DNA of 35,158 nucleotides from Accumulibacter sp. (lineage in GTDB: Bacteria; Pseudomonadota; Gammaproteobacteria; Burkholderiales; Rhodocyclaceae), in NCBI RefSeq assembly GCF_023806625.1, contig NZ_JAMTDX010000018.1:1-35158 (forward strand). Direction: 5' to 3'. The position numbers and the translations under genes were made by a program. Under the pieces are notes generated by a model. It was not told the DNA's origin. It ran no database searches and was given only the letters and a program-made list of their open reading frames with translations. Within the stretch, counting starts at the first letter, position 1; each line of letters opens with the position of its first letter. Positions 6,424-31,324 of the stretch are shown piece after piece.

Positions 6424-6857
6424 TGTCCACCCCGCCGTGAGTCGACCAGCCGCCGAACAGTCCACATCGCGGCCAGTCCGCCCTGGACCATGTAGGACAA
6501 AGGCGTTCCGCCACTGAAGAGACGGTTCTTGTTCGGCAGCGTCACCCAGGCATCGGCTAGATCTTCTGGGTAGAGGATATTGAGGCTCTTGAAGATGCCG
6601 ATGAGCAGCGAGATCCGTGCGAGCCGATCCGTGTCGAGAACCCGGTTCGGGTTTTTCTTCATCTCGTAGAACACGCCATTCGAAACGCCGCCCAATAGGT
6701 CGCGAGCGTCCGCGTCCTTGATTGCCCACTTCTCCGTGATGTTGAAGAAGGCTTTGATGGAGGACGGGCTCAAACGCTCCCGCTCCGTCTGATCGTTCAA
6801 GTTGATCAGCGGCGAGGGCTCGTAACCGGACTTTGGATAAGAGAGCTGGGCTTGCAT
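6420..6857 (-). CDS. Xre/MbcA/ParS-type antitoxin of the RES toxin
   Basis: This 145-residue protein carries an N-terminal helical HTH-like region (about 28-80) and the C-terminal toxin-binding domain of the MbcA/ParS/Xre family (about 85-145). The landmarks are ADAWVTLPNKNRLFSGGTPL and a final RRLVDSRRGG. The C-terminal tail normally blocks the RES active site. The ATG at 6857 has a strong GGAGGA site 4 bases upstream. It precedes and is coupled to the toxin gene, the usual order in this class. The pair runs against the surrounding tail operon, marking it as a moron expressed in the lysogen. Confidence 0.87.
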   Translation of the reverse strand: MQAQLSYPKSGYEPSPLINLNDQTERERLSPSSIKAFFNITEKWAIKDADARDLLGGVSNGVFYEMKKNPNRVLDTDRLARISLLIGIFKSLNILYPEDLADAWVTLPNKNRLFSGGTPLSYMVQGGLAAMWTVRRLVDSRRGGH

Positions 6858-12673: not shown

Positions 12674-13089
12674 TGTCGGAGCTTCCCGATTGGGCCGGCA
12701 TGTATGTCGGTCTGCCTTTCAAGGAGGGCGGGCGTGATCGACAGGGCCTCGATTGCTACGGGCTCCTGCGTCTCGTGATCAATGAACACTTCGGCGGTGG
12801 TATCCCCGAATACGAGGGGATCGCTTACCGGCCAGGCCACGACCGCGATCTGCTTGCTACCTTGATGGACGAGCGCATCCGGCTTTGGACGCCTGTCCCC
12901 ATGGGCAGCGAGAAACAAGGGGACGGCGTGCTGCTGCGCGTGATGGGCCGCCCCATCCATGTCGGTGTCGTCGTGGCGTCCGGCTGGATGCTCCACATCG
13001 AAAAGGACTGCGACAGCGTCCTCGAACGCTTCGATGCGGGCTCCCGCTGGGAGCGCCGCTTGCTCGGGTTTTACCGCCATGCCGCTTGA
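12673..13089 (+). CDS. NlpC/P60 peptidase-like tail tip protein (gpK-like)
   Basis: The 138-residue protein has the NlpC/P60 catalytic Cys28 in RQGLDCYGLLRLV and His96 in RPIHVGVVV, with His108 as a possible third residue. Such proteins are cysteine peptidases that cut peptidoglycan stem peptides and are carried at the tail tip to help DNA entry. I chose the ATG at 12673 (TGATG with the previous stop) over an in-frame TTG three bases upstream. The gene overlaps the J-like gene by 11 bases. Confidence 0.88.
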   Translation: MSELPDWAGMYVGLPFKEGGRDRQGLDCYGLLRLVINEHFGGGIPEYEGIAYRPGHDRDLLATLMDERIRLWTPVPMGSEKQGDGVLLRVMGRPIHVGVVVASGWMLHIEKDCDSVLERFDAGSRWERRLLGFYRHAA

Positions 13090-16000
13090 TGGATTGCAGG
13101 TCGAGACACCGATCCGCTGGACGCTTGTCGCGCGCCCGTTCTCGACGGATCGGGAGGAGCGGTCCGCACCTGCGGGCTTGAGCCTCGCGCAGATGCTCGA
13201 AGCCTCCGACCTGCCGCAGCGCTACTGGCCTTATCTCCAGGTCTTCGTCGACGACGAGGAAGTGCCGCGCCACTGGTGGGCACGGGTGCGCCCTAAACCC
13301 AATGCGCGGCTCTTCGTGCGGGTCAACGCCATGGGCGGCGGCGGAGGCGGGGGTGGCAAGAACCCGCTCGCCATCATCGGCGCCATCGCGGTCATCGCCT
13401 TCGCGGCATGGGCAGCACCGGCGCTGACAGCCGCCCTGTTCGGGGTCGAGGTCGCAGCGGTCAATGCGGCCGGGGTCTTCACAGCCATGGGGCTCACCAA
13501 GCTGGTGATTGCGGGCGCCATCACCATGGTCGGCTCGCTCCTCGTGAATGCGATCGCACCCACGCCGAGTCCTGCCATGCGCGGGACCGATGCCCCCGGC
13601 CTTTCGGCCCCCGCCTATGCGATCACGGGGACGTCCAACCGGCTCAATCCCTATGGCGCGATCCCGCGCGTCTACGGAACACGGCGTCTGTTCCCGGTCC
13701 TGGCGGCCAAGCCCTATACCGAAACGGTCGGCAACGAGCGCTACATGCGGCTCCTGCTGCTGGTCGGCTATGGCCCCCTCAAGATCGAGGACATCCGCGT
13801 CGGCGCCACGCCGATCTCGGCCTTCGACGGCGCCGAGGTCGAAATCCGCGAGGGCTGGGAGAACGACGCATCGATCACGCTTTATACCCAGCGTATCGAG
13901 GAAGACCCGCTTTCCATTGCTCTCACGGCGGCAGGCGGCTGGCGCACGATCACCTCGCGTCCCGGTGCGCGCGAGATCAGCCTCGATATCTCCTTCGATC
14001 GCGGGCTCGCCTTCTACAACGATCAGGGCGGGCGCTCGAACGCGACGGTCGAGTTTGACGCCGAGTATCGCGCGGTCGGGAACGATGCCTGGAGCGCCAT
14101 CCCTTGGAAGTCGGGCGGCGATGCGGGCTTCGAGACGGCGGGCAAGATCACGATCACGGAAGCATCGTCCTCGCCGGTGCGTCGCGGCGGGCGGTTCGAT
14201 GCGCCAGACGCCGGTCAGTATGAAGTGCGGCTGCGTCGAACGACGGCTGACGCGACCGGTCCACGTTTGATCGACAGTGCGACGCTCTCGGCATTGCGCT
14301 CGATCACCAACGATCCACCGGTCACGATGAGCGGGCTCGCCATGGTGGCGTTGCGGCTCAAGGCTTATGAGCAAATCAACAACCAGCTGCAGCAGATCAG
14401 CTGCCTGACGTCGTCTTATCTCGAGGTCTGGGATGGCGCTGCCTGGTCCTGGCAGCTCTCGCGCAATCCCGCCTGGGCCTATTGCGACATCCTGCGCCGG
14501 CGCGGCCGTGCGCGGTTGATGAGCGACGAGCGCATCGACTTGGCCTCGATCCGCGCCTGGGCGCAAGCCTGCGATGCCGTTGCGCAGGATGGCCAACCAA
14601 AATGGACCTTCGATGGTGTGGTCGAAGGCGGCTCCGTCGTCGAGGCGCTGCGCGATATCGCGGGCCATGCGCGGGCGCGCTATGGGATCCGCGACGGCAA
14701 GCATTCGGTCGTGCGCGATGTACCGCAGAGCGTGCCGGTGTTGCACATCACACCGCGCAACTCCTTCAACTACACCGGCCGCAAACAGTTCATTGATCTG
14801 CCGCACGCGCTGAAGGTCCGCTTCGTCAATCCCGACAAGGATTGGCAGGAGGACGAGCGCATCGTCTATGCCGATGGCTACAGCGCTGCGAATGCCGAGC
14901 GCTTCGAGACCGTCGACATGATGGCTTGTATCCGCTCCGAGCAGGCGTGGCGCGAGGGGCGCTATCATCTCGCCGTCGGCCGGCTTCGTCCCGAGACCCA
15001 CGAAATCTATCAGGATGTCGAGGCGCTGCGGGCGACCGATGGCGACCTCGTCATGTTCGCCCACGACGTCATCCTGGTCGGCCTGGCATGGGGACGGGTC
15101 AAAGGCCTGATCGTCACGGACGACATGGTGACCGGCCTGCGGCTCGACGAGCTGGCCGCCATGGCGGCCGGCAAGACTTACGCGCTGCGGGTCCGGCGTG
15201 CCGACGGCGCCAGTCAGGTCCTGCCCTTGGTTACGGCACCGGGGGATAGCCGCGATGTGACTCTTGCGACGGCGCTGCCGGAAAGCCTGGCGCCGGAGCC
15301 GGGCGACCTGTTCCAGTTCGGGGAGTCGGGCCGCGAGGCCGCCCCCATGCTGGTGAAGGGCATCGAGCCCGGCCCGAACCTTTCGGCCAAGCTGATCCTG
15401 ATCCCGGCAGCACCCGGCGTGCATGAGGCTGACACCGGACCGATCCCACCATTCGACAGCTACATCACGCGTCCGGCGCAGATCGAATTGATCCGCCCGC
15501 CGGCACCGGTCGTCTGGTCGGTGGTGTCGGACGAGACAGTGCTGGTGCGAGGCCCGGACGGCCGATCGAGCCCGCGCATCGTCGTGCGTCTCTATCCGCC
15601 GGCATCCGACGCTCTCAATCCGCCCGACGGGATCGAAATCCGTTACCGCCAATCGGGCAGCAGCGGCCCTTGGTCTGCCGTGCCCACACAGCCAGCCGAT
15701 ACGCTGGTGGTCGGCGTGCAGCCGGTCGAGGACGGCGTCACCTACGATCTGCGCCTGCGCTTCGTCAGCCGCATCGGGATCGCATCGGATTGGACGGAAA
15801 TCGCCGGGCATCTGGTGGTGGGCCGGACGACACCCCCGCCGGCAGTCGCCGACTTTGCCGCCGAGCGCCGCGCGGACGGGGTGCAGCTCAGTTGGGAGCC
15901 GGTTTCGGCGCTCGACCTCGTCGGCTACGAAATCCGCGACGGCGCTTCTTGGGATGCCGGGACGGTTGTCACCACCCGGCATCGTGGAACGACGCTGTTC

Positions 16001-17206
16001 GTGGCACTCGCCGATGCCGCCGAGCGCATCTTCTACATCAAGGCAATCGATGAAGTGGGGCTGCTGAGCCCGACGGCGTCGAGTGTCTCGGCTGCCGTCT
16101 CGCCACCGGATGGCGTGACGGCGTTCGATGTCGTGCCGCAGGGCGATCACGTCCGGGCCTCCTGGGAACCCGTCGATGGCAGCGGTGTCGAATATGAGAT
16201 GCGGGCCGGGCTCACCTGGGGCACCGGGCGCTTCGTTGGCCGGGCGGCCGGCAACCATCTCGTCGCACTTTGGCCGATCCGCGACGCCACGGACGAGACG
16301 TTCTGGATCAAGGCGGTGTCGTCCGCGGGCCTCTACAGCGACACGGCCGCTTACGCCACCACGCAGCTCGCACCACTCACCGGGCGCAACGCCATCCTGA
16401 CCAGCGACCGCCAGGCGCTGAACTGGGCGGGCGTGTCCCAGGGCATGGAAGTGATCGGCGGCAATCTTCTGGCGCTTGCGCGCACCGGCGGTGCCAACCT
16501 GCCGCGCGGCGAGTATGTCTTCCCGGTCGATCTCGGTCGGACATGGCGGGCGCGCAACTGGCTGGAAGCGCGCATCGCCACGGTGCCGGCCGACGACCTG
16601 ACCTGGGATGGGGCCGCCTTCCGCTGGGACGACACCGAAGCCACGTCCGCCTGGCTGCCGCTGGGCGATGTCGATGGGGCAACGGTGCGCACGCAGATCG
16701 CGGTCGAGGCTTCGCTCGCTAATGACCTGATCGAAGGTTTCCGTTTGGCCGGCAACGTAACGGGCGTCAAAGGCATGGCGGCAACCCAAGCAGCGAATCT
16801 TGGCTATGCGCCAGCGCGCTTCGATCAGGGATTGAAGGTCGGCGGTGGCACCAAGGCGGCGTGGCCGGTGAGCATCCCCTCGGAGTTCTCAACCACCTTC
16901 GATGTTCGGCTCGACACGCTGCTCGACGAGCCGATCGTCTATCTCGCACTCACCGGTACGGCCGGGACCCTGCGCCTGATCTGGTCGCCCGACATTGGCG
17001 CGTTCGCCCTGGAAGATGACCAGGGACGCAGGGTGGTCGCCTCGCTCGTTCGCCGCGCCGGCGATCTCGTGACCTTCGGGATCTGCCAGACGCCAACTAC
17101 GCGCCGTTTGTTCGCCGCCTCGATCCAGACGGGCGTCATCGCGTCGGGAGCCGAGCCCTTTGCTCCCCTTGGCGCTTTCACCGGCGCGCAGCTTCACCCC
17201 GCATAG
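13079..17206 (+). CDS. Tail tip attachment protein J-like (host specificity), with I-like N-terminus
   Basis: This 1375-residue protein is the central tail fibre/tip protein. Residues 1-85 form a small domain, followed by eight glycines (86-93) and two hydrophobic segments (about 96-122 and 137-160); lambda gpI has a similar layout, so this looks like an I-J fusion. Residues about 180-600 carry the J core with NPYGAIPRVYGTRRLFPVL and GYGPLKIEDIRVGATPI. Residues about 810-1100 contain FN3-like repeats (VQLSWEPVSALDLVGYEIRD and VRASWEPVDGSGVEYEMRAG). The C-terminus is divergent, as expected for receptor binding. The ATG at 13079 is the first good start after the NlpC gene; the frame is open further upstream only as an overlap. 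Confidence 0.9.
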   Translation: MPLDGLQVETPIRWTLVARPFSTDREERSAPAGLSLAQMLEASDLPQRYWPYLQVFVDDEEVPRHWWARVRPKPNARLFVRVNAMGGGGGGGGKNPLAIIGAIAVIAFAAWAAPALTAALFGVEVAAVNAAGVFTAMGLTKLVIAGAITMVGSLLVNAIAPTPSPAMRGTDAPGLSAPAYAITGTSNRLNPYGAIPRVYGTRRLFPVLAAKPYTETVGNERYMRLLLLVGYGPLKIEDIRVGATPISAFDGAEVEIREGWENDASITLYTQRIEEDPLSIALTAAGGWRTITSRPGAREISLDISFDRGLAFYNDQGGRSNATVEFDAEYRAVGNDAWSAIPWKSGGDAGFETAGKITITEASSSPVRRGGRFDAPDAGQYEVRLRRTTADATGPRLIDSATLSALRSITNDPPVTMSGLAMVALRLKAYEQINNQLQQISCLTSSYLEVWDGAAWSWQLSRNPAWAYCDILRRRGRARLMSDERIDLASIRAWAQACDAVAQDGQPKWTFDGVVEGGSVVEALRDIAGHARARYGIRDGKHSVVRDVPQSVPVLHITPRNSFNYTGRKQFIDLPHALKVRFVNPDKDWQEDERIVYADGYSAANAERFETVDMMACIRSEQAWREGRYHLAVGRLRPETHEIYQDVEALRATDGDLVMFAHDVILVGLAWGRVKGLIVTDDMVTGLRLDELAAMAAGKTYALRVRRADGASQVLPLVTAPGDSRDVTLATALPESLAPEPGDLFQFGESGREAAPMLVKGIEPGPNLSAKLILIPAAPGVHEADTGPIPPFDSYITRPAQIELIRPPAPVVWSVVSDETVLVRGPDGRSSPRIVVRLYPPASDALNPPDGIEIRYRQSGSSGPWSAVPTQPADTLVVGVQPVEDGVTYDLRLRFVSRIGIASDWTEIAGHLVVGRTTPPPAVADFAAERRADGVQLSWEPVSALDLVGYEIRDGASWDAGTVVTTRHRGTTLFVALADAAERIFYIKAIDEVGLLSPTASSVSAAVSPPDGVTAFDVVPQGDHVRASWEPVDGSGVEYEMRAGLTWGTGRFVGRAAGNHLVALWPIRDATDETFWIKAVSSAGLYSDTAAYATTQLAPLTGRNAILTSDRQALNWAGVSQGMEVIGGNLLALARTGGANLPRGEYVFPVDLGRTWRARNWLEARIATVPADDLTWDGAAFRWDDTEATSAWLPLGDVDGATVRTQIAVEASLANDLIEGFRLAGNVTGVKGMAATQAANLGYAPARFDQGLKVGGGTKAAWPVSIPSEFSTTFDVRLDTLLDEPIVYLALTGTAGTLRLIWSPDIGAFALEDDQGRRVVASLVRRAGDLVTFGICQTPTTRRLFAASIQTGVIASGAEPFAPLGAFTGAQLHPA

Positions 17207-17711: not shown

Positions 17712-18893
17712 GTGGCGGTTGAAGTCGTCACGACACCCGGAGCCGACTATCTCTGGAACGGATCGCCTTTTGCGTGGGACAGCGCTGAAGGCGGCAAGAC
17801 CTGGGCCGACGCCTCGGCGACCAGCTTTGTCGCTACCGAAAGCGGCGGGCTGATCCTGTCGGCGCTCGAAGCCCGGCTGCCCTTGGCGGTTCGTGCCGAT
17901 GCATTCGTAGTCGGCGACGCCCGCCAACAGACGGCGATCGCTGCCCGCGCCGAGGTGCTGGCGCTGGCCGAGACCTATATCGATCTAATCGCTTTCGTTC
18001 TGAAGGTCGCGGAGTCCTTCGCCATCGCCGAAGCCGCGCCGAAGCAGATATTGCCGACGGCCGCCCTTGAGACGTTTGCGGTCGGCGGTGCCGCAGATCG
18101 GCAGTTGATTCGCGCCGTCGCCGGGTTGTTCGGCGTCATCGATGCGCGGGTCGGAGTGGCACAGCGGAATTCCCAGGAGTCCGTGTCGTTCGCCGACCAG
18201 TCAGAGCGGTTCGTGGTCAAGCCGAGCCTGTCGAGTCTTGGGCTGACGGAAGAACGCCGCGCCATCGCCCAGCCGGACGCACACCAGTCACTCGCGCTGT
18301 CCGAGACCTACAGCGATCTCATCGGCTTCATCGTTCAGATCGCCGAAGCGCTCTCGGTGGTCGATCGCGTATCCGCCGCAGTGGTTCACCTGGACCCGGA
18401 ACAGCTCGCCGTGCTGGATCGCGTCTTGCGGGCCAGTGAGGCGGTAATCGCCGATCTCGCCTTTCGGACGACGCCGCTCGACGCGGAAAGCTTCGCGGCA
18501 CTCGTTGCCGAGAGCCGTCCGCTCGGCTACGGCCCGTTCCGCGACCTGACGCCGGGCGACTATGAATATGCCCGAGCACTCCTGCGTCTTGCTCTCGAAG
18601 CGCCAAGCACGACCGGCAGCCGCGTGGCGCTGGCCGAAGCCCGGCTCAATATCGATGTGCCCGATGTCCGCGACCGGGGAACGGTGGCTGTGCCGATCGG
18701 CGGCGCCGTTGTTCCCTTCGCCCGGACCTTCAATGCGCCGCCGGAAGTGCAGGCGACATTCAAGGGTGGCGCCGTGCTGGCCGTGCCGCAGATCGGCACG
18801 ATCACGACCACCGGCTTCCAGCTCTCGCTCATCAATCCCGACACGCAGGCTTCCGTCGCCGGCAATGCGAGCTGGTCGGCCGAAGGTTACTGA
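17712..18893 (+). CDS. Repeat-containing tail fibre protein
   Basis: The 393-residue protein uses GTG at 17712, five bases after the previous stop. Its middle consists of degenerate repeats. ALAETYIDLIAFVLKVAESF is echoed about 110 residues later by ALSETYSDLIGFIVQIAEAL, with shorter L-A-V-x-D-R units between. The C-terminal 60 residues (PPEVQATFKGGAVLAVPQIG ... VAGNASWSAEGY) match the closing beta domain seen at the end of many phage fibres, often H-type-lectin-like. It is likely a fibre shaft plus a surface-binding head. The function is inferred. Confidence 0.7.
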   Translation: MAVEVVTTPGADYLWNGSPFAWDSAEGGKTWADASATSFVATESGGLILSALEARLPLAVRADAFVVGDARQQTAIAARAEVLALAETYIDLIAFVLKVAESFAIAEAAPKQILPTAALETFAVGGAADRQLIRAVAGLFGVIDARVGVAQRNSQESVSFADQSERFVVKPSLSSLGLTEERRAIAQPDAHQSLALSETYSDLIGFIVQIAEALSVVDRVSAAVVHLDPEQLAVLDRVLRASEAVIADLAFRTTPLDAESFAALVAESRPLGYGPFRDLTPGDYEYARALLRLALEAPSTTGSRVALAEARLNIDVPDVRDRGTVAVPIGGAVVPFARTFNAPPEVQATFKGGAVLAVPQIGTITTTGFQLSLINPDTQASVAGNASWSAEGY

Positions 18894-18905: not shown

Positions 18906-19850
18906 ATGGCTCAGACCTATCCCGATATCCCGGCAACCAAGGCGGTCCGGGATAGCCGTCAGGACATTCTCGATCGGGACGAAGCCGTCCGGTCGGCCTT
19001 CTCCGGCACGACCTTCCCGAGCGCCAATCTCGCCGTCGGCATGTTCTGCTTCAGGACCGATCTCGGGCAGATCTACGAGCTGACGGCTACATCCCCGGTG
19101 ACCTGGACCCGAATCCCGCTCGGGGTGCCGGTGCCGCTGGCGCAGGGTGGCACGGGGGCGTCGGATGCCGCGACCGCCCGCGCCAACCTTGGCCTCGCGG
19201 CACTCGCGGTGAAGAACACGGTCGCGGCAGCCGATATTGACAACGCCGCCGTCCAAACCGCGAAGCTGCAGGATTCGTCGGTCACCGCCGCGAAGATCGC
19301 GGACGGTCACGTGACGTCCGCCAAGATCGCCGATGGGAACGTGACGACGGCCAAGATCGGCGATCAGCAGGTCGTCACGGCGAAGCTCGCGGATGCCGCT
19401 GTAACGAATGCGAAGATCGCCGATGGCGCGGTCACGAGCGGAAAGGTCGCCGACTCCAGCATCACCAGCGCGAAGATTGCGGATGGGACGATCGCGACCG
19501 CCGATCTGGCAGCGCAGACGATCGCCGACATTCGCAACGGTGTCGATCTCGGCAGCCGCGTGGCGAAGACCGGCGACAGCATGAGCGGCGAACTCGCCGG
19601 AACGACGTTCCGGTCGAATGGCACAGGCGGATCGAACACGGGATTTCGGCTCGCGAATGCCACGGATATCGGGACCCTGTTCGCCGCCGCCAGCGATGCT
19701 TTCACCGGGGCAAGCGGGTCCGGGGGCGGCTACGGCTCCAATCCCAAAATCACGTCCGTGTCGCTGTCACGCTCAGGCACGACCGCGGTGCTGTCCGTCG
19801 GGACCGCGTGCGACTGCGCCTGTGCATGTGACTGCGCCTGCAACTGCTGA
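18906..19850 (+). CDS. Tail fibre with decapeptide repeats and a C-terminal poly-(Cys-X) tail
   Basis: The 314-residue protein has a fibre-like N-terminus with LAQGGTGASDAATARANLGL (about 78-97), a phage fibre signature. Eight ten-residue repeats of the form V-T-x-A-K-I-A-D-G follow, with Lys exactly every 10 residues (Lys120 to Lys190), probably a triple-helical shaft. Residues 215-300 form a Gly/Ser-rich region. The last 14 residues (301-314) are ACDCACACDCACNC: seven cysteines strictly alternating with Ala, Asp or Asn, directly before the stop. The rest of the protein has only one Cys (48). The next two genes end in a radical SAM/SPASM enzyme, so this tail is the obvious candidate substrate. 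Metal binding or disulfide stapling are alternatives. Confidence 0.85.
   Translation: MAQTYPDIPATKAVRDSRQDILDRDEAVRSAFSGTTFPSANLAVGMFCFRTDLGQIYELTATSPVTWTRIPLGVPVPLAQGGTGASDAATARANLGLAALAVKNTVAAADIDNAAVQTAKLQDSSVTAAKIADGHVTSAKIADGNVTTAKIGDQQVVTAKLADAAVTNAKIADGAVTSGKVADSSITSAKIADGTIATADLAAQTIADIRNGVDLGSRVAKTGDSMSGELAGTTFRSNGTGGSNTGFRLANATDIGTLFAAASDAFTGASGSGGGYGSNPKITSVSLSRSGTTAVLSVGTACDCACACDCACNC
19245..19505 (+). repeat. 30-bp coding repeats in the tail fibre shaft
   Basis: About eight or nine degenerate 30-base units encode the ten-residue motif with AAGATCGCCGATGG-like cores. Such arrays can recombine and change shaft length. Confidence 0.75.
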
Positions 19851-19858
19851 GGTCCACG

Positions 19859-20599
19859 ATGTCGATCTATGTCTGTACCCACTACACGAGCCTTCGGAAT
19901 GGCTTCGACATTCAGGTCGAGCCGACACGAATCGCGATCACCGGCCTCAATGCCTGCAATGGTGCTCCCGATGATCCTCCGGTCCCGCTACCGGCGGTGA
20001 ACATCGAACTTGAGGAACTGAGGGCGCGACGCGACTGGAGCGATTTCGCGCTCTGGGTCGTGGGAGTCGACTTCTATGAGAACCGAACCTTTCCGCCCTT
20101 CAATCTCTATGCCCTGACCGCGACGACCAAGAGCGACCCGCACCAGCAGGCGCTACGCGATCGACGAAATTACCCGATCCACATCTTCGTGCCGACGGCC
20201 GACAGCGACTTCCTCGACTGCAGCATCGTCGCCTACGCCCACCCCGATCTCGGTGTCACCAGCAACCTGCCGACAGAAGAGCGGGTCTGGACCGGTCAGC
20301 CGCTGGTCGATCGCCCGGCCCTTCAGATCACGGCGCCCGCCACCATCCCCGCCAACGGTACTGTGAAGGCCCGCATCGGACTGCGAGATCATCGCAACAA
20401 GGCGCTCGCCCGTGCCTGCGAGGTCCATCTCGAAACCACCGGCGGCCAACTCGCGCGCTCGCGGCTGCCGCTCGACGCCGGCAAGGGCAGTTTCGCGGTG
20501 TCGGCCTCGGGTTTGGAGCCTGGCGAGCGCTTCAAGATCAAAGCTGGGTTCCGGCACTATAGCGGCGTCGCCGAGCATTGGTTCGAGGTGACGGCATGA
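19859..20599 (+). CDS. Unknown protein between Cys-tailed fibre and radical SAM enzyme
   Basis: I do not recognise this 246-residue protein. It begins MSIYVCTHYTSLRNGFDI, has a middle part rich in aromatic residues (SDFALWVVGVDFYENRTFPP), and ends with an Ig-like beta sandwich (about residues 150-246) containing ITAPATIPANGTVKARIGLR and a FKIKAGFRHYSG strand, reminiscent of invasin/Big-type domains. It sits 8 bases after the fibre stop and overlaps the radical SAM start as ATGA, so all three are one transcriptional unit. It could be a fibre partner, a substrate-presenting factor or a capping protein; none of these is shown. Confidence 0.7.
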   Translation: MSIYVCTHYTSLRNGFDIQVEPTRIAITGLNACNGAPDDPPVPLPAVNIELEELRARRDWSDFALWVVGVDFYENRTFPPFNLYALTATTKSDPHQQALRDRRNYPIHIFVPTADSDFLDCSIVAYAHPDLGVTSNLPTEERVWTGQPLVDRPALQITAPATIPANGTVKARIGLRDHRNKALARACEVHLETTGGQLARSRLPLDAGKGSFAVSASGLEPGERFKIKAGFRHYSGVAEHWFEVTA

Positions 20600-21936
20600 A
20601 CCGGAACACCATCACGCTGCAGGACCGCGCCGGCGCATCGCACCGGGTTGTCTACGACCCTCACGCATCGACGCTCTGCTGGTCGAGTGGGGATCCAGTC
20701 GACCTTGCCAAGATCGGCATGGCGCCGCAGGTACGGGATCGCGACTGGCAGCACGCCGTCGCGATCAATGGCGTCCATGCGCCCGGGCGGAAGTCGCGGG
20801 CCATCCGTCGTCTCAAAATCCAGCTCGGCCTCAAATGCAACTATGGCTGCAGCTACTGCCTGCAGCGCTTCCAGCCGGAGGCGGGCAGCGGCGCGCCAGA
20901 TCAAGTCGAGGCGTTCCTGCGCAACCTGCCGCTCTGGTTCGATGGCGGCGAGGACGGCAAGGGCGCAGGCGTGCGCTTCGAGTTCTGGGGTGGCGAGCCC
21001 TTCGCTTACTGGAAGACCCTGAAGCCCCTCGGCAGCGCGATCAAGGCTACCTACCCGAACGCAAGCTTCGCGATCGTGACCAACGGCTCGCTCATCACGC
21101 CGGAGATCGTCGAATGGCTCGACGCGCTCGGGGCGACGGTGGGCATCTCGCATGACGGGCCGGGGCAGTCGGCGCGCGGTCCCGATCCGCTCGACAATCG
21201 GCTGCAACGCCGGCATCTGCTCGCCCTCTACGACCGCCTGCTGCCACAGGGCCGGGTCAGCTTCAACGTCGTCCTCACCGATACGAACCACGATCTGCGC
21301 GCCATCGCGGATTGGTTCGCGGCGAAGCTTGACCGGCGGGCGTTGTCGCTGACCGTCGAGGGCGTGGTGATCCCCTATCATGCCGAGGGTCACGAATGCT
21401 CCCTGGGCGGCGACGAGCGCCAGGCGGCCTTCATGCGTTCCATCCTGCACGCGGTCGCAGCCGGCGAGGGGCTCGCCTTCCAGGCCGTGCGCCGGAAGCT
21501 CGATGACTTCTTTCAATCCCTGGCAACCGCGCGGCCCGCGCATGCCCTTGGCCAGAAATGCGGCATGGACCGCGACGACACCATCGCCGTGACCCTCGAT
21601 GGCAAGGTGATCACCTGCCAGAACGTCAGTGCTGCGGGCACGGCGCCCAACGGCGCGTCGCACGAGATCGGCAATGTCGAGGCCCTCGATGCCGTGCGGC
21701 TTGCGAGTGCTCGGCATTGGTCCCATCGCGAGGAATGCCGCAACTGCCCGGTGCTGCAGCTGTGCAAGGGCTCCTGCATGTACCTCGAAGGCCGCGACCG
21801 GCAGCAGGCTTGCGACAACGAGTTCGCCTGGAACCTCGGACTCTTTGCAGCCGCCCTGTTCCTGCTGACCGACATGGTTCCCGTCCAGATCGACGGACCG
21901 ATGCGACATCCGCCTGCGGAGTCTGCCGCCGCCTGA
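20596..21936 (+). CDS. Radical SAM/SPASM maturase encoded in the phage fibre operon
   Basis: This 446-residue enzyme has the radical SAM cluster motif C-x3-C-x2-C at Cys81, Cys85 and Cys88 (LKCNYGCSYC). It also has the GGEP motif (132-135, SAM binding) and a TIM-barrel-like core. The SPASM/twitch cysteines for auxiliary Fe-S clusters are Cys322, 341, 381, 384, 390, 394 and 406 (ECRNCPVLQLCKGSC). SPASM enzymes of this group (AlbA, anSME, PqqE relatives) install thioether, C-C or similar crosslinks in peptides or oxidise Cys/Ser in proteins. The N-terminal 70 residues have no recognised motif and might bind the substrate. The ATG at 20596 overlaps the previous stop. A phage structural context is unusual for this family; the Cys-rich fibre tail upstream is the likely target. 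Confidence 0.9.
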   Translation: MNRNTITLQDRAGASHRVVYDPHASTLCWSSGDPVDLAKIGMAPQVRDRDWQHAVAINGVHAPGRKSRAIRRLKIQLGLKCNYGCSYCLQRFQPEAGSGAPDQVEAFLRNLPLWFDGGEDGKGAGVRFEFWGGEPFAYWKTLKPLGSAIKATYPNASFAIVTNGSLITPEIVEWLDALGATVGISHDGPGQSARGPDPLDNRLQRRHLLALYDRLLPQGRVSFNVVLTDTNHDLRAIADWFAAKLDRRALSLTVEGVVIPYHAEGHECSLGGDERQAAFMRSILHAVAAGEGLAFQAVRRKLDDFFQSLATARPAHALGQKCGMDRDDTIAVTLDGKVITCQNVSAAGTAPNGASHEIGNVEALDAVRLASARHWSHREECRNCPVLQLCKGSCMYLEGRDRQQACDNEFAWNLGLFAAALFLLTDMVPVQIDGPMRHPPAESAAA

Positions 21937-21965
21937 TGTAGGCGCGCCACTGCCGTCCGTATCGC

Positions 21966-21986
21966 CCGCCTTCTGGCGGATTTTTT
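21966..21986 (+). terminator. Intrinsic terminator after the radical SAM gene
   Basis: CCGCC-TTCT-GGCGG (21966-21979) is followed by A and six Ts (21981-21986). It ends the fibre-maturase block just before the lysis genes, so lysis transcription must pass or restart here. Confidence 0.85.
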
Positions 21987-22006
21987 GTGTCCAGAGGAGA
22001 ACGACC

Positions 22007-23174: not shown

Positions 23175-23375
23175 ATGGCTCCCAAGTATCCCAACATCAC
23201 GGTTCGCCTGTCCGGCCGTGACAGCAATGCCTTCATGATCCTTGGCTTGTGCCAACGGGCTGCAAAAGATGCGGGACTCCCGAAGGAAGAGATTGACGCC
23301 TTCTACAAAGAGGCCACAAGCGGCGATCATGATCATCTGATCCAAACCGCCATGCGCTGGTTCAGCTGCGCGTAG
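23175..23375 (+). CDS. Small conserved-looking protein of unknown function
   Basis: This 66-residue protein begins MAPKYPNITVRLSGRDSNAF and contains FMILGLCQRAAKDAGLPKEE and DHDHLIQTAMRWF. I have a general recollection of similar small proteins in mobile elements but no function. AAGGAA lies 8 bases before the ATG. An AT-rich stretch at 23110-23130 upstream, unlike the GC-rich surroundings, may hold its promoter. It converges with hsdR and their 3' ends overlap by 14 bases. It lies exactly at the junction between phage lysis genes and the defence operon. Confidence 0.65.
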   Translation: MAPKYPNITVRLSGRDSNAFMILGLCQRAAKDAGLPKEEIDAFYKEATSGDHDHLIQTAMRWFSCA

Positions 23376-26337
23376 CCGCCGCCCCGCCCTGCGCCGCCTT
23401 GTTGGCATAGGTGGCCGCGAAAATCGTCTCCGAGAGCCACTTCTTGAACGATGGATTATCGCTGAATTGTTTGAAGAGTTCGGTGTGGTCTGACAGCAGC
23501 TCGATGACTGCCCGCTCCAGCGCCTTGTCGTGCTCGATACGAGCGTTTTGTTTATCCGAGTTCTTCATCGCGTTCTGGTAGGCCTTGTCGGCCGCTACCT
23601 TAGTCGGCAATTCCTCCGCGATCACTTTTCCAATCTTATCAGCGTCCTTCCAGTCGATGTTGCCGAACATCTCGTTGAACGTCTTCAGGATGTTGCTCAG
23701 CAGGTCGAGCTCCGGCTCCGGCTTTCGGCCGCCGCCGCTGGTGGGGACGGGGCCGATTTCTGCATTGGCATCGGGCAACGCGATCGACATAGTCGCCTGC
23801 GCCTCGACCCGGTAGCTGTCCATGTCGATGGATTCGAGAATACCCTTCGAGAGGTCCTGCTCTTCTGGTGCCGGCAATTTCGGCGTGAGGAAGTTCAGGA
23901 AAATCGAGAGCTTCTCCCACGCCGCGTTGGTATAGGGCAGGATCGCGGCGAGGAACCCGTAGGTCCGCGTAAACGCCTTTGCCTTGCCCTTGAAGTCTAC
24001 CTGTCCGTCTTCATCGAGGTCGGTCTTGTAAACCGCAACACACGCATCGAGAATCGGGTCGAGTTTGTCCCTGTCGGCACCGCCGAGATACAGCGCCACA
24101 AGGTTTTCAACCTGCTCCCAGGAATAGACCTGATAACCATCGAGCCGCGCTTTCAGGTCGTGCAATTTGTTCGGGTCAGTCTCCTCGCTCAGGATCGTCG
24201 TGCGGTAATAATCCTCGAACGACGCCTTGATCCCATCCACGTCGTTCATGAAGTCCAGAACGAAGGTGTCGTGCTTCTGCGGATGTGCCCGGTTCAGGCG
24301 CGACAGCGTCTGCACGGCCTTGATGCCGGAAAGCGTCTTGTCCACGTACATCGTGTGCAGCAGCGGTTCGTCGTAGCCGGTCTGGAACTTGTCGGCGACG
24401 ATGAGGAATCGGTACGGGTCCTTCTGGATCAACTCTTCGATCTTGTTGCTCGGAAAGCCGTTGAGCGACGCCTCGGTAACCTTCTGTCCGCCAAATTCAT
24501 GCTCGCCCGAGAAGGCGACGATGGCCTGATAGGGGCTCTTGCGCTCCTTCAGATACTCCCCAAAGGCGTGAAAGTACTGTATGGCGCGGTGAATCCCGCT
24601 GGTCACCACCATGGCGCGCGCCGCACCACCGATCTTGCGGTGGGCCATCACCTGGTCATGGAAATGATCGACCATGATCTCCGCCTTCTTACGGATGGCA
24701 TGATCGTGGGATTCGACATAGCGGCGGAGCTTCTTCTGCGCCCGCTTGGTGTCGAACTGCGGATCGTCCTCCACCGTCTTCATGAGGCGGTAATAGCTCT
24801 CGACTGGCGTGTAGTGCTTCAGAACATCGAGGATGAAACCCTCCTCGATGGCCTGCTTCATCGAGTAATTATGGAACGGGACGTGCCTGACCTTGCCGCC
24901 CTCCGGTACTGCCGTGCCGAAAATCTCCAGCGTCTTGTTCTTCGGCGTGGCCGTAAAAGCGAAGTAGCTCGCGTTCGGCAGAACCTTCCGCGCCTCCATC
25001 AGCCGGTTGATGGTGTCCTCGACCGTCTCCTCTTCCTCCTCGGCGCCGTTCGCGGCGAGTGCGATGTTCATCTTTGCGGATGTCCGCCCGCCCTGGCTGG
25101 AATGCGCCTCGTCGATGATGATGGCGAAGGTTCGCCCACGATGCTCGTCCCCGATCTCGTCCAGGATGAACGGGAACTTTTGTACCGTGGTGATGATGAT
25201 CTTCTTGCCCTGCTGCAGGAAAGTCCGCAGCTGCTGCGACCCTTCGGTCACCGCTCCGACAATGGAGGATACCTGCGCGAACTGCTTGATGGTGTCGCGG
25301 ATCTGTTTGTCGAGATTGCGCCTGTCTGTGACCACGATGACGGTGTCGAAGGTCGGCTTGCCACCGCTCTCCAGCCCAATCAGCTGGTGGCCGAGCCAGG
25401 CAATCGAGTTGCTCTTGCCCGACCCCGCCGAGTGCTGGATCAGGTACCGCCGCCCTGCGCCGGAGGACTTGGCATCCGCCAGCAACTTTCGGACCACATC
25501 GAGCTGGTGAAAGCGCGGGAAGACCTGCTTCGGCGGCTTCTTCTTGCCCCGTTCGTCCGTTTCCTCGACCACCTGCGCATAGTTTTCCAGGATATCAGTT
25601 AGGTTCCGCTTGGTCAGAACCTGCTTCCAAAGATAGTCGGTCTTCAGGCCATGGGGGTTGGGCGGGTTCCCCGCGCCGTCGTTCCAGCCCTTGTTGAACG
25701 GCAGGAACCAGGACGCCTTGCCCTTCAGATGCGTGCACATCCGCACCTCGTGGTCGTCCACGGCGAAGTGGACGACGCAGCGGCCGAACTGGAACAGCAG
25801 CTCCTTGGGATCGCGGTCGCGCTTGTACTGCTCGATGGCGTCCTCGACCGTCTGCTTGGTCAGGCTGTTCTTCAGCTCGAACGTGGCGACAGGCAGACCG
25901 TTGATGAACAGCGCCACATCGAGCGACAGTTTGGCCGCATCCTTGGAATAATGCAGCTGGCGGGTGACGCTGAAGATGTTGGCGGCGAACAGCTCCTCGG
26001 CCTTGGCGTTGCCAGGCGTTGGCGTGCCGAAGAACAGCTCCACCGAGCCAGGGCCGTGCTTCACCCCGTTGCGCAGCACGTCGATGACGCCGCGCTTGGC
26101 GATCTCGCCCTGCAACCGGTGCAGGAACTGAAGCCGCTTCGGTCCGTCCTCGCGGATGCCGAGCGCTTCGACGGCCTCCGGCTGCGTGGCGCCCAAGAAG
26201 TCGAACAGCTTCCCCTGGTCGACGGCGTGGTCCCGGTCGAAATCCTTCGAGTCCCCGGCGACGTACCCCGCCTCGTCGATCAGCGAGCGGACGATCAGGG
26301 CTTCGAGGCCCTTTTCGCTGGTGTCAGTCGTCGGCAT
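23362..26337 (-). CDS. hsdR: Type I restriction endonuclease subunit R
   Basis: The 991-residue protein is the motor/nuclease of a type I restriction enzyme. An N-terminal PD-(D/E)XK nuclease is visible as Asp140 ... Glu154-Leu-Lys156 (ATFELKNSL). The SF2 translocase motifs follow: Walker A SAGSGKS at 303-309 and DEAH at 409-412 (IIIDEAHSSQGGR). Motif VI-like SRLNRAHPQKHDTFVLDF is near residue 680. The C-terminal helical region binds the HsdM/HsdS core. The protein translocates DNA and cuts at a distance after recognition of an unmethylated site. Its start overlaps the hsdS stop by 14 bases, and it is the last gene of the leftward operon. Length and motifs look intact. Confidence 0.95.
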   Translation of the reverse strand: MPTTDTSEKGLEALIVRSLIDEAGYVAGDSKDFDRDHAVDQGKLFDFLGATQPEAVEALGIREDGPKRLQFLHRLQGEIAKRGVIDVLRNGVKHGPGSVELFFGTPTPGNAKAEELFAANIFSVTRQLHYSKDAAKLSLDVALFINGLPVATFELKNSLTKQTVEDAIEQYKRDRDPKELLFQFGRCVVHFAVDDHEVRMCTHLKGKASWFLPFNKGWNDGAGNPPNPHGLKTDYLWKQVLTKRNLTDILENYAQVVEETDERGKKKPPKQVFPRFHQLDVVRKLLADAKSSGAGRRYLIQHSAGSGKSNSIAWLGHQLIGLESGGKPTFDTVIVVTDRRNLDKQIRDTIKQFAQVSSIVGAVTEGSQQLRTFLQQGKKIIITTVQKFPFILDEIGDEHRGRTFAIIIDEAHSSQGGRTSAKMNIALAANGAEEEEETVEDTINRLMEARKVLPNASYFAFTATPKNKTLEIFGTAVPEGGKVRHVPFHNYSMKQAIEEGFILDVLKHYTPVESYYRLMKTVEDDPQFDTKRAQKKLRRYVESHDHAIRKKAEIMVDHFHDQVMAHRKIGGAARAMVVTSGIHRAIQYFHAFGEYLKERKSPYQAIVAFSGEHEFGGQKVTEASLNGFPSNKIEELIQKDPYRFLIVADKFQTGYDEPLLHTMYVDKTLSGIKAVQTLSRLNRAHPQKHDTFVLDFMNDVDGIKASFEDYYRTTILSEETDPNKLHDLKARLDGYQVYSWEQVENLVALYLGGADRDKLDPILDACVAVYKTDLDEDGQVDFKGKAKAFTRTYGFLAAILPYTNAAWEKLSIFLNFLTPKLPAPEEQDLSKGILESIDMDSYRVEAQATMSIALPDANAEIGPVPTSGGGRKPEPELDLLSNILKTFNEMFGNIDWKDADKIGKVIAEELPTKVAADKAYQNAMKNSDKQNARIEHDKALERAVIELLSDHTELFKQFSDNPSFKKWLSETIFAATYANKAAQGGAAATRS

Positions 26338-28438
26338 CGGCCCCCTCCATCACCTCGGCGTCGTCGCCTTCCAGGTTCGGGTCCAACGCATCGTCCCCGT
26401 CGGAAATCAGTTCATCCGCAGGAGCGGTGATCTCGATATGCCGAACATCCAGCTTGCCGGTAACGACATCGGCGATCAGGCGTTCGCGGTACTCGCGGAC
26501 CAGCTGTATCTCACGTTGAACCCGATCAATGGTTTGTTCGAGCGTTGCCGTTTCTGTTGCAAGCCAAGCCGATATCTCTCGCTGCTCTTCAATAGGCGGG
26601 ACCGGAAAACGAAGCCTCTTTATATCAGACGACGAAAGATGCTTCACGGTGGTCGAGAATGTCTGGTCGTTGATCCACTTCAGAGGGAAGGCGATGAGCG
26701 AGGCGAGGTACGCTTCGTGCAGTTGCTCATTGGGACGGATACAGCAAACACGCTGATTTAATAGGGCCGTAGGCCCCTTCCACCGCGCAACATTGAAGTC
26801 TCCATCCATTCCAACGAGTATGTCGCCAGTTTGAACGGCCGCATCTTCGACGAATTCTCCCGTGTACGTGACTATCGTATCTTCGCGAAAAATGTCTCTG
26901 ATCCGGATGAGCGGATGCCCAGTTCCGTCATTGGAAAAAAGCCTGGAATCAAATGGGTAACCGTTGATCAGTTTTATCTTCGAGCCAAGGTGAATTGTTT
27001 GCCAATGCGCCGGAACCTCGGGCATCCAGTCGATACCGGTGGGCTTCATCGGGGCGTCGGGGTTTAGGCCGCGGGTGACGGCGCGGTTGATGATCGCCTG
27101 CTTCTGCTCGTTCAACAGCCCGATCAGCCGCCGCTTGTTGCGGATCAGCCGGCGGACCTGCGCTTCCTTGGCGCGAAGGAAGGCGACCATGCGCTCCTGC
27201 TCCTCGCGCGGCGGGCACGGGAACGCGATGTCGAGGAATTTATCGGGATAGAGCCGCAACCGCGATGCCCGAATGCCAGTCGAACGGCAGATGTACTCCC
27301 ACCTCAGCATCGGCGTGCGCAGGAGGTAGTCGACGTACTCGGGCAGGAAGTCCTCCGAGTTCAGGGGGCGATAGACGCCATAGGCCGGGCTTACGATCCC
27401 CACGTTCTTCGAGACGCCAAGCGCCGACATCCACGCCCACATCGTGTTAATGACCACGTCGTTCGGCCGCGCCACCTTGTGGCCGACGTAGGACTCGGCC
27501 TTGAACATTGTCACGTTCTTCTGGCTGCGTGGTGTCACGCCTGTGGTGTGCGAGACTGAAAGCAGCTCCTCCTCGCCGGTCTGCGAACGCTCGTCGATTT
27601 CGCGGAAGAAGTACTTTCCGCGCTTCTCCTGCCATTGCGCCGGGATCTCACCGAGCCAATGAACTCGCGCGGGTCTGTATGCCGGATAGGCTGCGGGCGA
27701 CTGCTTCGGTTTCGCCTCGACGGCAAGATTGGGCTGAATATCCATTTGGCCCTTGGCGATCATCGGCTGATCGAACAGAGAAGGTTGCGGCAGGTCGCGC
27801 AGCGGTGGCGCGACAACCGGACGTGACTCGATCCCGACCGGCCTGGAGGCCCCGTCGGCGGCGCGAATCGCCTCGATCGGCTGGCGGAACAGAAGGAACT
27901 CCGGAATGGCCAGCGGCTCGATGAACCGCAGGCCCTCCGCCTCATCGCCCTTTAGCTGCTCGCGAAGCTCCATCAGCAGGCGGCCCAGCACGTTCATGCC
28001 GACGAGTGAGCCGTCGTCGGCGACCTTCGCGCCCCAGAAATCATCCTTGCGGGATTGCTCGACGATGGGGCGGCCCCCCGTCGCCAGCAGCAGCCTGCCG
28101 AACTCACGCCAGTTCTGCGCCAGCTTCACCCGAAGGCACCAGCGCATGATCTTGACGCGCACCGCGTCCCAGTCCGGCCGCGAGTCCTTGCGAAACGGCT
28201 TGCTGCGCATCTTCGCCGTCATCGGGCTATGCTCGTCGATGATCTTGCGCTGCACGTCCGGCAGATGCGGAAATCGGCACGCCTGATAGAGGGCTTCCGA
28301 CGTACGGATGCGAACGCCGTTCACCCGCAGCGGAAAGCCCGGCGCCATGTTCGACAGACCGCCGAACCGCTCATTCGTCTTCAGGAAGACGACGCTGGCG
28401 GAGGGGTCATATGTGCGAACCTGGCTGGCCTGGGACAT
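26324..28438 (-). CDS. hsdS: Specificity subunit HsdS with N-terminal NADAR domain
   Basis: The 704-residue protein combines two functions. Residues about 15-162 form a NADAR (YbiA/DUF1768) domain: FGGLSNMAP, SEALYQACRFP, DDFWGAK (132-138) and GMNVLGRLLMELRE (147-160). NADAR enzymes process ADP-ribose derivatives and include ADP-ribosyl-guanine hydrolases that act as antitoxins to DarT. A linker (about 165-255) leads to two HsdS half-repeats. Each opens with a W-x-x-E-[IV]-P-x-x-W motif (WLGEIPAQW at 261, WMPEVPAHW at 471) and ends in a helix (REEQERMVAFLRAKEAQVRR and EEQREISAWLATE). The frame extends to 28537, but the ATG at 28438 shares its A with the upstream TGA, so I take that start. Fusion to HsdS would place NADAR at the DNA-bound complex. 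Confidence 0.9.
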   Translation of the reverse strand: MSQASQVRTYDPSASVVFLKTNERFGGLSNMAPGFPLRVNGVRIRTSEALYQACRFPHLPDVQRKIIDEHSPMTAKMRSKPFRKDSRPDWDAVRVKIMRWCLRVKLAQNWREFGRLLLATGGRPIVEQSRKDDFWGAKVADDGSLVGMNVLGRLLMELREQLKGDEAEGLRFIEPLAIPEFLLFRQPIEAIRAADGASRPVGIESRPVVAPPLRDLPQPSLFDQPMIAKGQMDIQPNLAVEAKPKQSPAAYPAYRPARVHWLGEIPAQWQEKRGKYFFREIDERSQTGEEELLSVSHTTGVTPRSQKNVTMFKAESYVGHKVARPNDVVINTMWAWMSALGVSKNVGIVSPAYGVYRPLNSEDFLPEYVDYLLRTPMLRWEYICRSTGIRASRLRLYPDKFLDIAFPCPPREEQERMVAFLRAKEAQVRRLIRNKRRLIGLLNEQKQAIINRAVTRGLNPDAPMKPTGIDWMPEVPAHWQTIHLGSKIKLINGYPFDSRLFSNDGTGHPLIRIRDIFREDTIVTYTGEFVEDAAVQTGDILVGMDGDFNVARWKGPTALLNQRVCCIRPNEQLHEAYLASLIAFPLKWINDQTFSTTVKHLSSSDIKRLRFPVPPIEEQREISAWLATETATLEQTIDRVQREIQLVREYRERLIADVVTGKLDVRHIEITAPADELISDGDDALDPNLEGDDAEVMEGADADD

Positions 28439-29484
28439 CAGAACACGTCCTTCGCCAGCATGGCCATGAAGCGCTTCATCGACGTGTCGCTGTTGGTCGT
28501 CCGGGGGAACAGGGGATGCCAAGGATCGCCCGCCCAAAGCGCCAGCGGCGCATTGTTCGGACAGTTCCTGAAAGTGACGATCAGCGAACCGAAGCCGAGG
28601 GTCTCAAGGAGCATGTTTCCCAACGGACGTTGGTACTTATTGAGGTTCGGGCACATCTGCCGAATGCGTACGCCAGCCTTCAGAAACTCTTCTTCCAGAA
28701 GCTGGCGCGCTTCGTCGCTTGAAAAAATCCCCTTTCCACCGACCTGTCCTGCTGTCCGCAAGTGCGGCTTATGGGTCATAGCCGCTACGTATTCGTTCAC
28801 CGCAGCGTCATCAGGAATACGGACAGGTCGCAATACGTCTGATGTATCGGTCTGGGCATTCTGATTTTCGAGACCTAGCTCACACCACCAATGGAACTCT
28901 ATTTTCTTTCCGGCATCTTTAGCGGTTTTCCGAATATTTCCCTTGTTATAGTGTTCTGCGTAATACCTTGCGCCGGTGTGCATCGCGATCATGATTATAT
29001 GCACCGTGGCTTTCGCAGGCGCGTTCTTGGCGATCCATTTCTCGATGTCTTGCTTTACTCTGTTTCCAGTGAAGGTCGCGTCATCAATGTAGACGAATAC
29101 TTCTGCGTCCTTGCCGCACTCGGAAACCTCGAAACCACAATTTGCCTTCAGCAACTTGCTGAACAGAGCGAGCATCTGCGTCTGGCTGGCACCGCCGCCC
29201 TGAATATCGAGGAACTGGACCTCTTTCCAAAATGCACACGGGTTATCACCGACCAATTTCTCGGTTTGAAACAGTCCGTGCAGAAATTTCGTGGTCCTCG
29301 CGCGGGAAAAGTAGGTCTTCTTAAGGACGTGATCCATCTCGCGCAGGATTGGAAGCTGCACCGCAGCGTCAAACTGGTTGATCCAGCGCTCGACATGCTT
29401 CGGGGTCGGCGCGGGCAGGTCGCCTTCACGATAATCGGCGGTCGTCGCGGCTATTGACGCGAGAAGGTCGTCCCGTTCAGCCAT
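28438..29484 (-). CDS. Phosphoribosyltransferase-like protein of the defence operon
   Basis: In this 348-residue protein EVFVYIDDATFTGNRV (about 128-143) has the form of a type I phosphoribosyltransferase PRPP loop (hydrophobic strand, DD, then TG). The C-terminal GSLIVTFRNCPNNAPLALW and HPLFPR resemble the PRTase-CE group described in prokaryotic conflict systems. PRTases move a phosphoribosyl group from or to PRPP; in a conflict setting the substrate could be a nucleotide signal or NAD-related metabolite, which is inference. Also visible is an N-terminal helical segment, WINQFDAAVQLPILREMDHV (34-53). It follows the DUF262 gene by 41 bases and is coupled to the NADAR-HsdS gene by TGATG. I am fairly sure of the fold, not the reaction. 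Confidence 0.75.
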   Translation of the reverse strand: MAERDDLLASIAATTADYREGDLPAPTPKHVERWINQFDAAVQLPILREMDHVLKKTYFSRARTTKFLHGLFQTEKLVGDNPCAFWKEVQFLDIQGGGASQTQMLALFSKLLKANCGFEVSECGKDAEVFVYIDDATFTGNRVKQDIEKWIAKNAPAKATVHIIMIAMHTGARYYAEHYNKGNIRKTAKDAGKKIEFHWWCELGLENQNAQTDTSDVLRPVRIPDDAAVNEYVAAMTHKPHLRTAGQVGGKGIFSSDEARQLLEEEFLKAGVRIRQMCPNLNKYQRPLGNMLLETLGFGSLIVTFRNCPNNAPLALWAGDPWHPLFPRTTNSDTSMKRFMAMLAKDVF

Positions 29485-29525
29485 GTCTCGCCCCTCCGCT
29501 TGCGTTGCGTGTCCCCGACGGCATT

Positions 29526-31322: not shown

Positions 31323-31324
31323 GT

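Follow-up and report, generated by a model that had tools for sequence, protein, structure and literature searches.

A prophage gene cassette that probably builds a radical SAM-matured, thioether cross-linked tail-fibre tip

The window analysed here is a stretch of 35,158 nucleotides from Accumulibacter sp. (contig NZ_JAMTDX010000018.1, from a genome of 4.09 Mb), which by gene content is a lambda-like prophage carrying in its fibre module three genes for a tail fibre (P0001), a companion protein (P0002) and a radical S-adenosylmethionine (SAM)/SPASM enzyme (P0003). Our reading, to which we give a probability of about 0.6, is that these genes form a fibre-maturation cassette, the enzyme maturing the cysteine-rich fibre tip most likely through thioether cross-links. 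That the cysteine tail is the substrate of P0003 appears very probable from the genomic associations described below, and, given modification, the bond is more probably a thioether than not. The original prediction that the phage matures its own fibre tip with a SPASM enzyme thus draws support from two sides, namely a co-occurrence of tails and enzyme seen in both directions of search, and the grouping of the enzyme with thioether maturases and maturases of ribosomally synthesised and post-translationally modified peptides (RiPPs).

P0001 (18906..19850, plus strand) is 314 residues long, contains AKIADG-type repeats (by eye) and matches PHROG tail-fibre families, best phrog_28766 at 6e-22. Its C-terminus is ACDCACACDCACNC, and the final 13 residues, CDCACACDCACNC (19809..19847), hold seven of its eight cysteines in an alternating run (302, 304, 306, 308, 310, 312 and 314, the remaining one being Cys48), separated by D, A, A, D, A and N. 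The codons of the tail are mixed (TGC GAC TGC GCC TGT GCA TGT GAC TGC GCC TGC AAC TGC), so the tail is not a simple DNA repeat. After an 8-base gap comes the ATG of P0002 (19859-20599, plus strand), which overlaps the P0003 gene (20596-21936, plus strand) by ATGA. The seven cysteines at every second residue up to the fibre end, the eight-base gap, the ATGA coupling and the ten cluster cysteines of the enzyme had all been read from the DNA beforehand, and each is borne out by translation, coordinates or alignment. A terminator said to close and isolate the block held up in part: a terminator-like hairpin is present 3' of the enzyme gene (21962..21989, plus strand; stem 21962-21979, then the T run ATTTTTTG), but the 4 kb scanned contain 2 such sites against a shuffled expectation of 2.1, so the hairpin alone does not show that the block is isolated.

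The enzyme P0003, of 446 residues, belongs to family phrog_1802 (PHROG 1802 profile, 5.5e-59, residues 63-411). It scores above cut-off with the radical SAM model PF04055 (32.7 bits, cut-off 29.5) and the SPASM model TIGR04085 (35.3, cut-off 27), and below it with the Pfam SPASM model PF13186 (14.1, cut-off 21.5). The CxxxCxxC SAM-cluster motif (C81, C85 and C88; 20836..20859, plus strand) and the seven cysteines of the SPASM region (322, 341, 381, 384, 390, 394 and 406; 21559..21813, plus strand) are conserved without exception in the 32 aligned relatives. Its predicted fold, which begins with strands at residues 4-9, 15-21 and 26-29, finds its nearest solved counterpart in the thioether synthase CteB, with an alignment covering residues 1-428; a sequence search of the PDB with the enzyme profile gave 22 distinct sequences, 8vpo (TigE), anSME and CteB topmost, and over the 32 aligned enzymes the best E-value belongs to PapB. 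In anSME, Asp277 is the proposed base, and P0003 has Gln342 at that position. Nor is there an equivalent of anSME Cys261, an Aux I ligand in the cluster-ligand list of PMC6231123. The seven SPASM cysteines, together with the missing sulfatase-maturase residues, fit a CteB-like thioether synthase, and grouping of P0003 with thioether/RiPP maturases is supported by profile, predicted fold and cluster ligands. Among phage records, 12 have a match to the enzyme, with identity above 40% only in Achromobacter phages JWF (two records) and 2-1; plasmids gave five weak matches (25-28% identity), none spanning 80% of the query.

If the tail is the substrate, enzyme and tail should be found together. Enzyme loci were collected blind to tails, 123 in total (the window copy, 2 from phage records, 40 from viral contigs and the best 80 of 134 from bacterial genomes), and scored for a same-strand open reading frame (ORF) of at least 60 residues with a Cys-X tail, no more than 5.5 kb upstream of the enzyme. 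At least 5.5 kb of upstream sequence is present at 91 of the 123 loci, and 73 of these have such an ORF. After collapse of the enzymes at 90% identity, the tail-bearing neighbour is found at 53 of 69 loci, the window locus not being among the 69. In 41 of the 53 the tail is CxCxCxC within the last 45 residues, in five it is CxCxC there, and in seven it lies just ahead of a Hint-like motif. The tail protein of one locus (L183, 186 residues) is counted in the 53 and left out of the composition, clustering and companion tallies below.

The association holds equally when the search starts from the tail. Viral contigs were scanned for DNA encoding CNCNCNC, giving at least 120 stretches, which were sorted into C-terminal frames (at least 45 residues precede the pattern, and the stop comes no more than 70 residues after the pattern begins) and short frames (fewer than 45 before it); an enzyme was called on the same strand at E<1e-10 with a profile of P0003 and its relatives. 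It is present at 44 of 60 C-terminal-frame loci (35 after collapse at 90%) and at 0 of 59 short-frame loci, while two loci fall in neither class, one of them with the enzyme; L075 is entered under two classes because it has a match on each strand. Three of the 16 C-terminal-frame loci without enzyme look by eye like chance frames (L048, L146 and L160); the other 13 offer only 94 to 2547 bases of downstream sequence, and one of these (L084) lies on the same contig as the enzyme-bearing L008. A control pattern, SNSNSNS, gave 120 stretches, 11 of them C-terminal as defined above, and none with a same-strand enzyme. The proposed check on co-occurrence of cysteine tails with the enzyme across genomes therefore comes out positively both ways. 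With a pattern near the window's own tail, ten loci were found, four with a same-strand enzyme, which in three begins 39-82 bases past the pattern start; of the six lacking it, two (L400 and L401) are short frames, three (L395, L396 and L402) have 665-1258 bases downstream, and L403 is described below. A sample of genomes of the same class has the cysteine pattern in 68 of 369 and the enzyme (E 1e-40) only in the window's own genome (1 of 369), which makes it unusable as a contingency test; among 30 genome loci with the pattern that were examined (12 + 18), the enzyme stands at the window locus only.

The tails themselves are simple, and their settings varied. Counted over 61 non-redundant tails, 261 residues stand between cysteines, 56% of them Asn, 20% Ala and 14% Asp; the last cysteine run holds 3 to 11 cysteines, and Asn precedes most runs. 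Compared over the 110 residues that precede the tail, with the low-complexity filter on, the proteins form 11 unlinked clusters at E<1e-3 and 14 at E<1e-6; clustering of the protein bodies without the filter gave five, one of which merges 49 of 57 proteins. By the filtered comparison, 11 or more proteins that share no sequence link end in such a tail, although the contexts before the tail often read as a beta strand entering it and some may be remotely akin. Tail-bearing proteins reach 616 residues, and for most of them we infer the name 'fibre', as few besides P0001 were scanned themselves. One is a collagen-like (Gly-Pro-Gln/Thr) protein ending in NCNCACDCGNN (L209:2345-2788). In three loci (L006:3206-4060, L007 and L165) a tail segment of period three (e.g. 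CSYCSYCSYCTYC) leads to CNCNCDC, the usual period being two. At L057 and L134, each a phage locus, several radical SAM matches follow a short frame that carries a tail and ends in CNCNCNCNCTRGIL or CNCNCNCNCSRGIL.

Not all tails are C-terminal as encoded. At nine loci (L003, L004, L033, L170, L207, L216, L220, L225 and L228) a Hint-like motif starts directly from the tail-closing cysteine, and in all four that were scanned (L003, L170, L207 and L216) the Pfam Hint match begins exactly on it, with PF05203 scores above the cut-off of 32.1 in L003 (47.5) and below it in L207 (29.5), L170 (28.5) and L216 (18.6). Hint domains are known to cleave at their first Cys; such cleavage, if it occurs here, would make the tail C-terminal.

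The companion P0002 (246 residues) consists of a beta-rich N-terminal part and a C-terminal intimin/invasin-like immunoglobulin (Ig)-like domain (residues 151-246; 20309..20596, plus strand). Its N-terminal 150 residues have no solved relative among the matches listed, no search having been made with that segment alone. Members of its family stand near 41 of 52 tail loci. The companion alignment (A3) leaves out L003, whose row looked unrelated, L242, which matches at the C-terminal end only, and four further rows. Further frequent partners of the tail loci are 2-oxoglutarate (2OG)-Fe(II) oxygenases.

How might such a cassette work? The (X-Cys)n strip at the C-terminal end of P0001 would be the target of P0003. 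Most likely the enzyme would take a hydrogen from a residue adjoining or close to each cysteine (mainly Asn, Asp or Ala), and the cysteine sulfur would bond to the carbon concerned; the resulting row of intra-tail thioether bridges would cap the fibre tip with a polycycle of the ranthipeptide or sactipeptide kind. The tight Cys-X spacing is feasible for thioethers, since PapB accepts Cys-Xn-Asp with n = 0 to 6, according to PMC9413430. Maturation would take place in the host cytoplasm during fibre production, and once the tip is finished the Ig-like P0002 probably caps it or packs against it. The 2OG-Fe(II) oxygenases of other phages may additionally hydroxylate the tip, and Hint domains there probably self-cleave to expose it. 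The tip could serve in receptor contact or as a stable cap free of disulfides: a compact covalent cap would need no disulfide, would resist proteases and could show the receptor a non-protein surface. Judging from gene content, the many phages that have a Cys-strip tail protein and a nearby enzyme probably build such a chemically hardened tip. A broader picture, which we offer tentatively and with more doubt than conviction, is that phages infecting alpha- and betaproteobacteria, and perhaps members of other phyla, have added (Asn/Asp/Ala-Cys)n tails to varied fibre ends, and that a dedicated radical SAM/SPASM enzyme, often alongside 2OG-Fe(II) oxygenases, turns them into polycyclic, possibly hydroxylated tips contacting the receptor or envelope. 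Equally tentatively, the tip and not a protein fold would then engage the receptor, for example as a small-molecule-like ligand of an outer-membrane protein or by mimicking a metal-loaded siderophore, and a maturase of RiPP type would have been enlisted to make part of the virion.

Several observations weigh against the cassette as we read it, among them the 16 of 69 non-redundant enzyme loci that have no tail. In five of these (L231, L233, L235, L238 and L241) the enzyme adjoins a large protein, a YcaO protein in L231 and alike by eye elsewhere; these loci are possibly a separate peptide-modifying system. The YcaO match is PF02624 at 1.5e-40, the large proteins end in HPCT or HPFT, and the hosts are Variovorax, Ramlibacter and a gammaproteobacterial metagenome-assembled genome. 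L236 is of the same clade and has different neighbours. Four others (L237, L239, L240 and L243) are of a Bacteriovoracaceae type; among these relatives a second radical SAM protein adjoins the enzyme (L237:8329-9981, L240:5242-6963), and the top NCBIfam match in L237 is PapB (3.9e-25). L181 and L211 are Sulfuritalea/Sulfuricella loci, the latter beside a type I secretion-like ABC transporter. In the viral contigs L037 and L039 the enzyme is present and a tail protein absent from the available flank; their neighbours resemble, by eye, flavin halogenases and 2OG oxygenases, three of which gave no NCBIfam match at 1e-5. L242 retains a companion-like ORF, and the fibre of L203 resembles that of L201 by eye up to a divergent end. 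A search near 12 of the 16 for cysteine-rich precursor ORFs (plus strand, 20-200 residues, at least 5 Cys) gave matches at six, all judged by eye to be chance. In a quick, midpoint-rooted tree of 78 enzymes 6 changes suffice to place the no-tail label, where shuffled labels need 14.7 on average. Some tail-less clades look like cellular RiPP-type operons, while the phage clades look as if they had recruited such an enzyme, a direction that we only infer because the tree is rooted at the midpoint alone.

There are counterexamples from the tail side too. L403 has a tail and 7353 bases downstream without an enzyme; its relative L404 has the enzyme upstream, and on that side the sequence of L403 extends for only 560 bases. 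Eight of the 29 non-window genome loci have the pattern in a C-terminal frame and no enzyme, although by eye these look like chance frames in GC-rich DNA. In L065, L403 and L404 the tail is followed by a stretch that is not Hint. The share of Ala between the cysteines means that an acceptor restricted to Asn or Asp misfits some sites, and the companion is absent from 11 of the 52 tail loci, including those of JWF and 2-1. As for the enzyme itself, its top NCBIfam match is the geopeptide maturase (4.9e-15), viperin and QhpD also outrank PapB, and its scores lie far under the cut-offs for PapB (NF047865; 45.4 bits, cut-off 340), the SCIFF maturase (TIGR03974; 31.3, cut-off 425) and the anaerobic sulfatase maturase (TIGR03942; 36.9, cut-off 349.45). 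Neither a leader peptide nor a clear RiPP recognition element (RRE) was identified, no separate RRE search of the P0003 N-terminus having been made.

What else could account for the pairing? P0003 might modify the tail without forming thioethers, by making formylglycine from Cys in the manner of a sulfatase maturase, by epimerisation or by a C-C cross-link. We regard this as unlikely, though worth keeping in view: the two anSME residues that P0003 lacks speak against sulfatase-type chemistry, and alternating cysteines at fixed spacing suggest sulfur chemistry on Cys. Alternatively, the strip might stay unmodified, binding metal or iron-sulfur in the trimer or forming interchain disulfides, with P0003 acting instead on a host component or on a phage protein, be it P0002 or another. 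In a beta strand every second side chain points the same way, so that a trimeric tip could bind metal; the P0002 family, too, is commonly found nearby (41 of 52), and a few tail-like frames without enzyme were seen. Yet the enzyme pairs with tails in the 11 loci that have no companion, among them six of the seven Hint loci of that set, tail and enzyme co-occur across sequence-unlinked proteins, and the 16 enzyme-less viral frames resolve into the three chance-like ones and the 13 with at most 2547 bases downstream. We consider an unmodified strip improbable. It is scarcely credible that the tail is a chance or repeat artefact, in which a few codons expanded at the end of a fibre gene that happens to lie near an unrelated radical SAM gene. 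Runs of Cys-X codons do occur by chance, as the 59 short-frame viral loci and 29 of the 30 genome loci attest, but these chance-type loci are without a same-strand enzyme, the window's tail codons are mixed, and tails recur in 61 non-redundant enzyme loci. An origin of the tail as a DNA repeat is ruled out by the mixed codons and by the non-random neighbours seen in the reverse search and its SNSNSNS control.

A thioether-forming fibre maturase would resemble ranthipeptide/SCIFF maturases such as PapB and CteB in combining a radical SAM domain with a seven-cysteine SPASM region and a Cys-rich target. Unlike the targets of PapB and CteB, the putative target of P0003 is the C-terminal tail of a 314-residue virion protein without a leader peptide, whereas sactipeptide and ranthipeptide RiPPs have short, leader-bearing precursors. 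QhpD is a SPASM enzyme that cross-links Cys to Asp/Glu within a subunit of quinohemoprotein amine dehydrogenase. As there, the target here would be a functional protein and not a released peptide, and P0003 matches the QhpD profile over residues 69-395; it differs in its phage virion target and its score (45.4 bits, cut-off 453). anSME, a SPASM enzyme acting on a Cys of a whole protein, has a similar fold and differs in the Asp277 and Cys261 noted above. Hint (Hedgehog/intein) domains would apparently serve, in the tail variants, to expose the cysteine tail. Engineered display of lanthipeptides at a phage coat protein's C-terminus, known to us from a title in the reference list of PMC11002830, likewise places a ring-modified peptide on the C-terminus of a virion protein, as proposed here; to judge from that title it is engineered and of lanthipeptide chemistry, whereas the present case looks natural and radical-based. 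In the open-licence PubMed Central (PMC) literature we found no account of virion proteins being matured by a radical SAM enzyme, in line with the original prediction, whose author knew of no such system. Enzyme chemistry of this sort is already known, and what this literature does not describe is its application to the ends of virion fibres. If the reading is correct, virus particles bear ribosomally encoded, radically cross-linked chemical tips. This would give a large, sequence-recognisable set of enzyme/substrate pairs with short and simple substrates, a new angle on phage host recognition, a source of peptide-stapling enzymes working at protein C-termini, and a concrete function for PHROG 1802, filed just as 'other'.

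The surrounding prophage genes include a portal (PF05136, 1.2e-111), a tape measure (PF06791) and, upstream of the cassette, the tail-tip protein J (12959..17206, plus strand; PF24801 FNIII-A_GpJ 3.3e-23, PF13550 4.2e-8), its ORF being given as listed and its real start lying possibly further in. Between J and the fibre is P0004, a fibre-module protein without assigned function (17712..18893, plus strand), and a tyrosine integrase (PF00589) is found at the far end of the prophage. The prophage also carries a defence island on the minus strand (23362-33457), made up of HsdR (23362-26337), HsdS with a fused N-terminal NADAR domain (26324-28537; PF08719 5e-25), PRTase-CE (28438-29484; PF24390 6.3e-59), a GmrSD_N protein (29526-31322) and HsdM (31325-33457). 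Amid the tail genes, on the opposite strand (5737-6857, minus strand), lie a gene for a RES-domain protein (PF08808 2e-29) and, upstream of it, a small gene that by eye probably encodes its Xre-like antitoxin.

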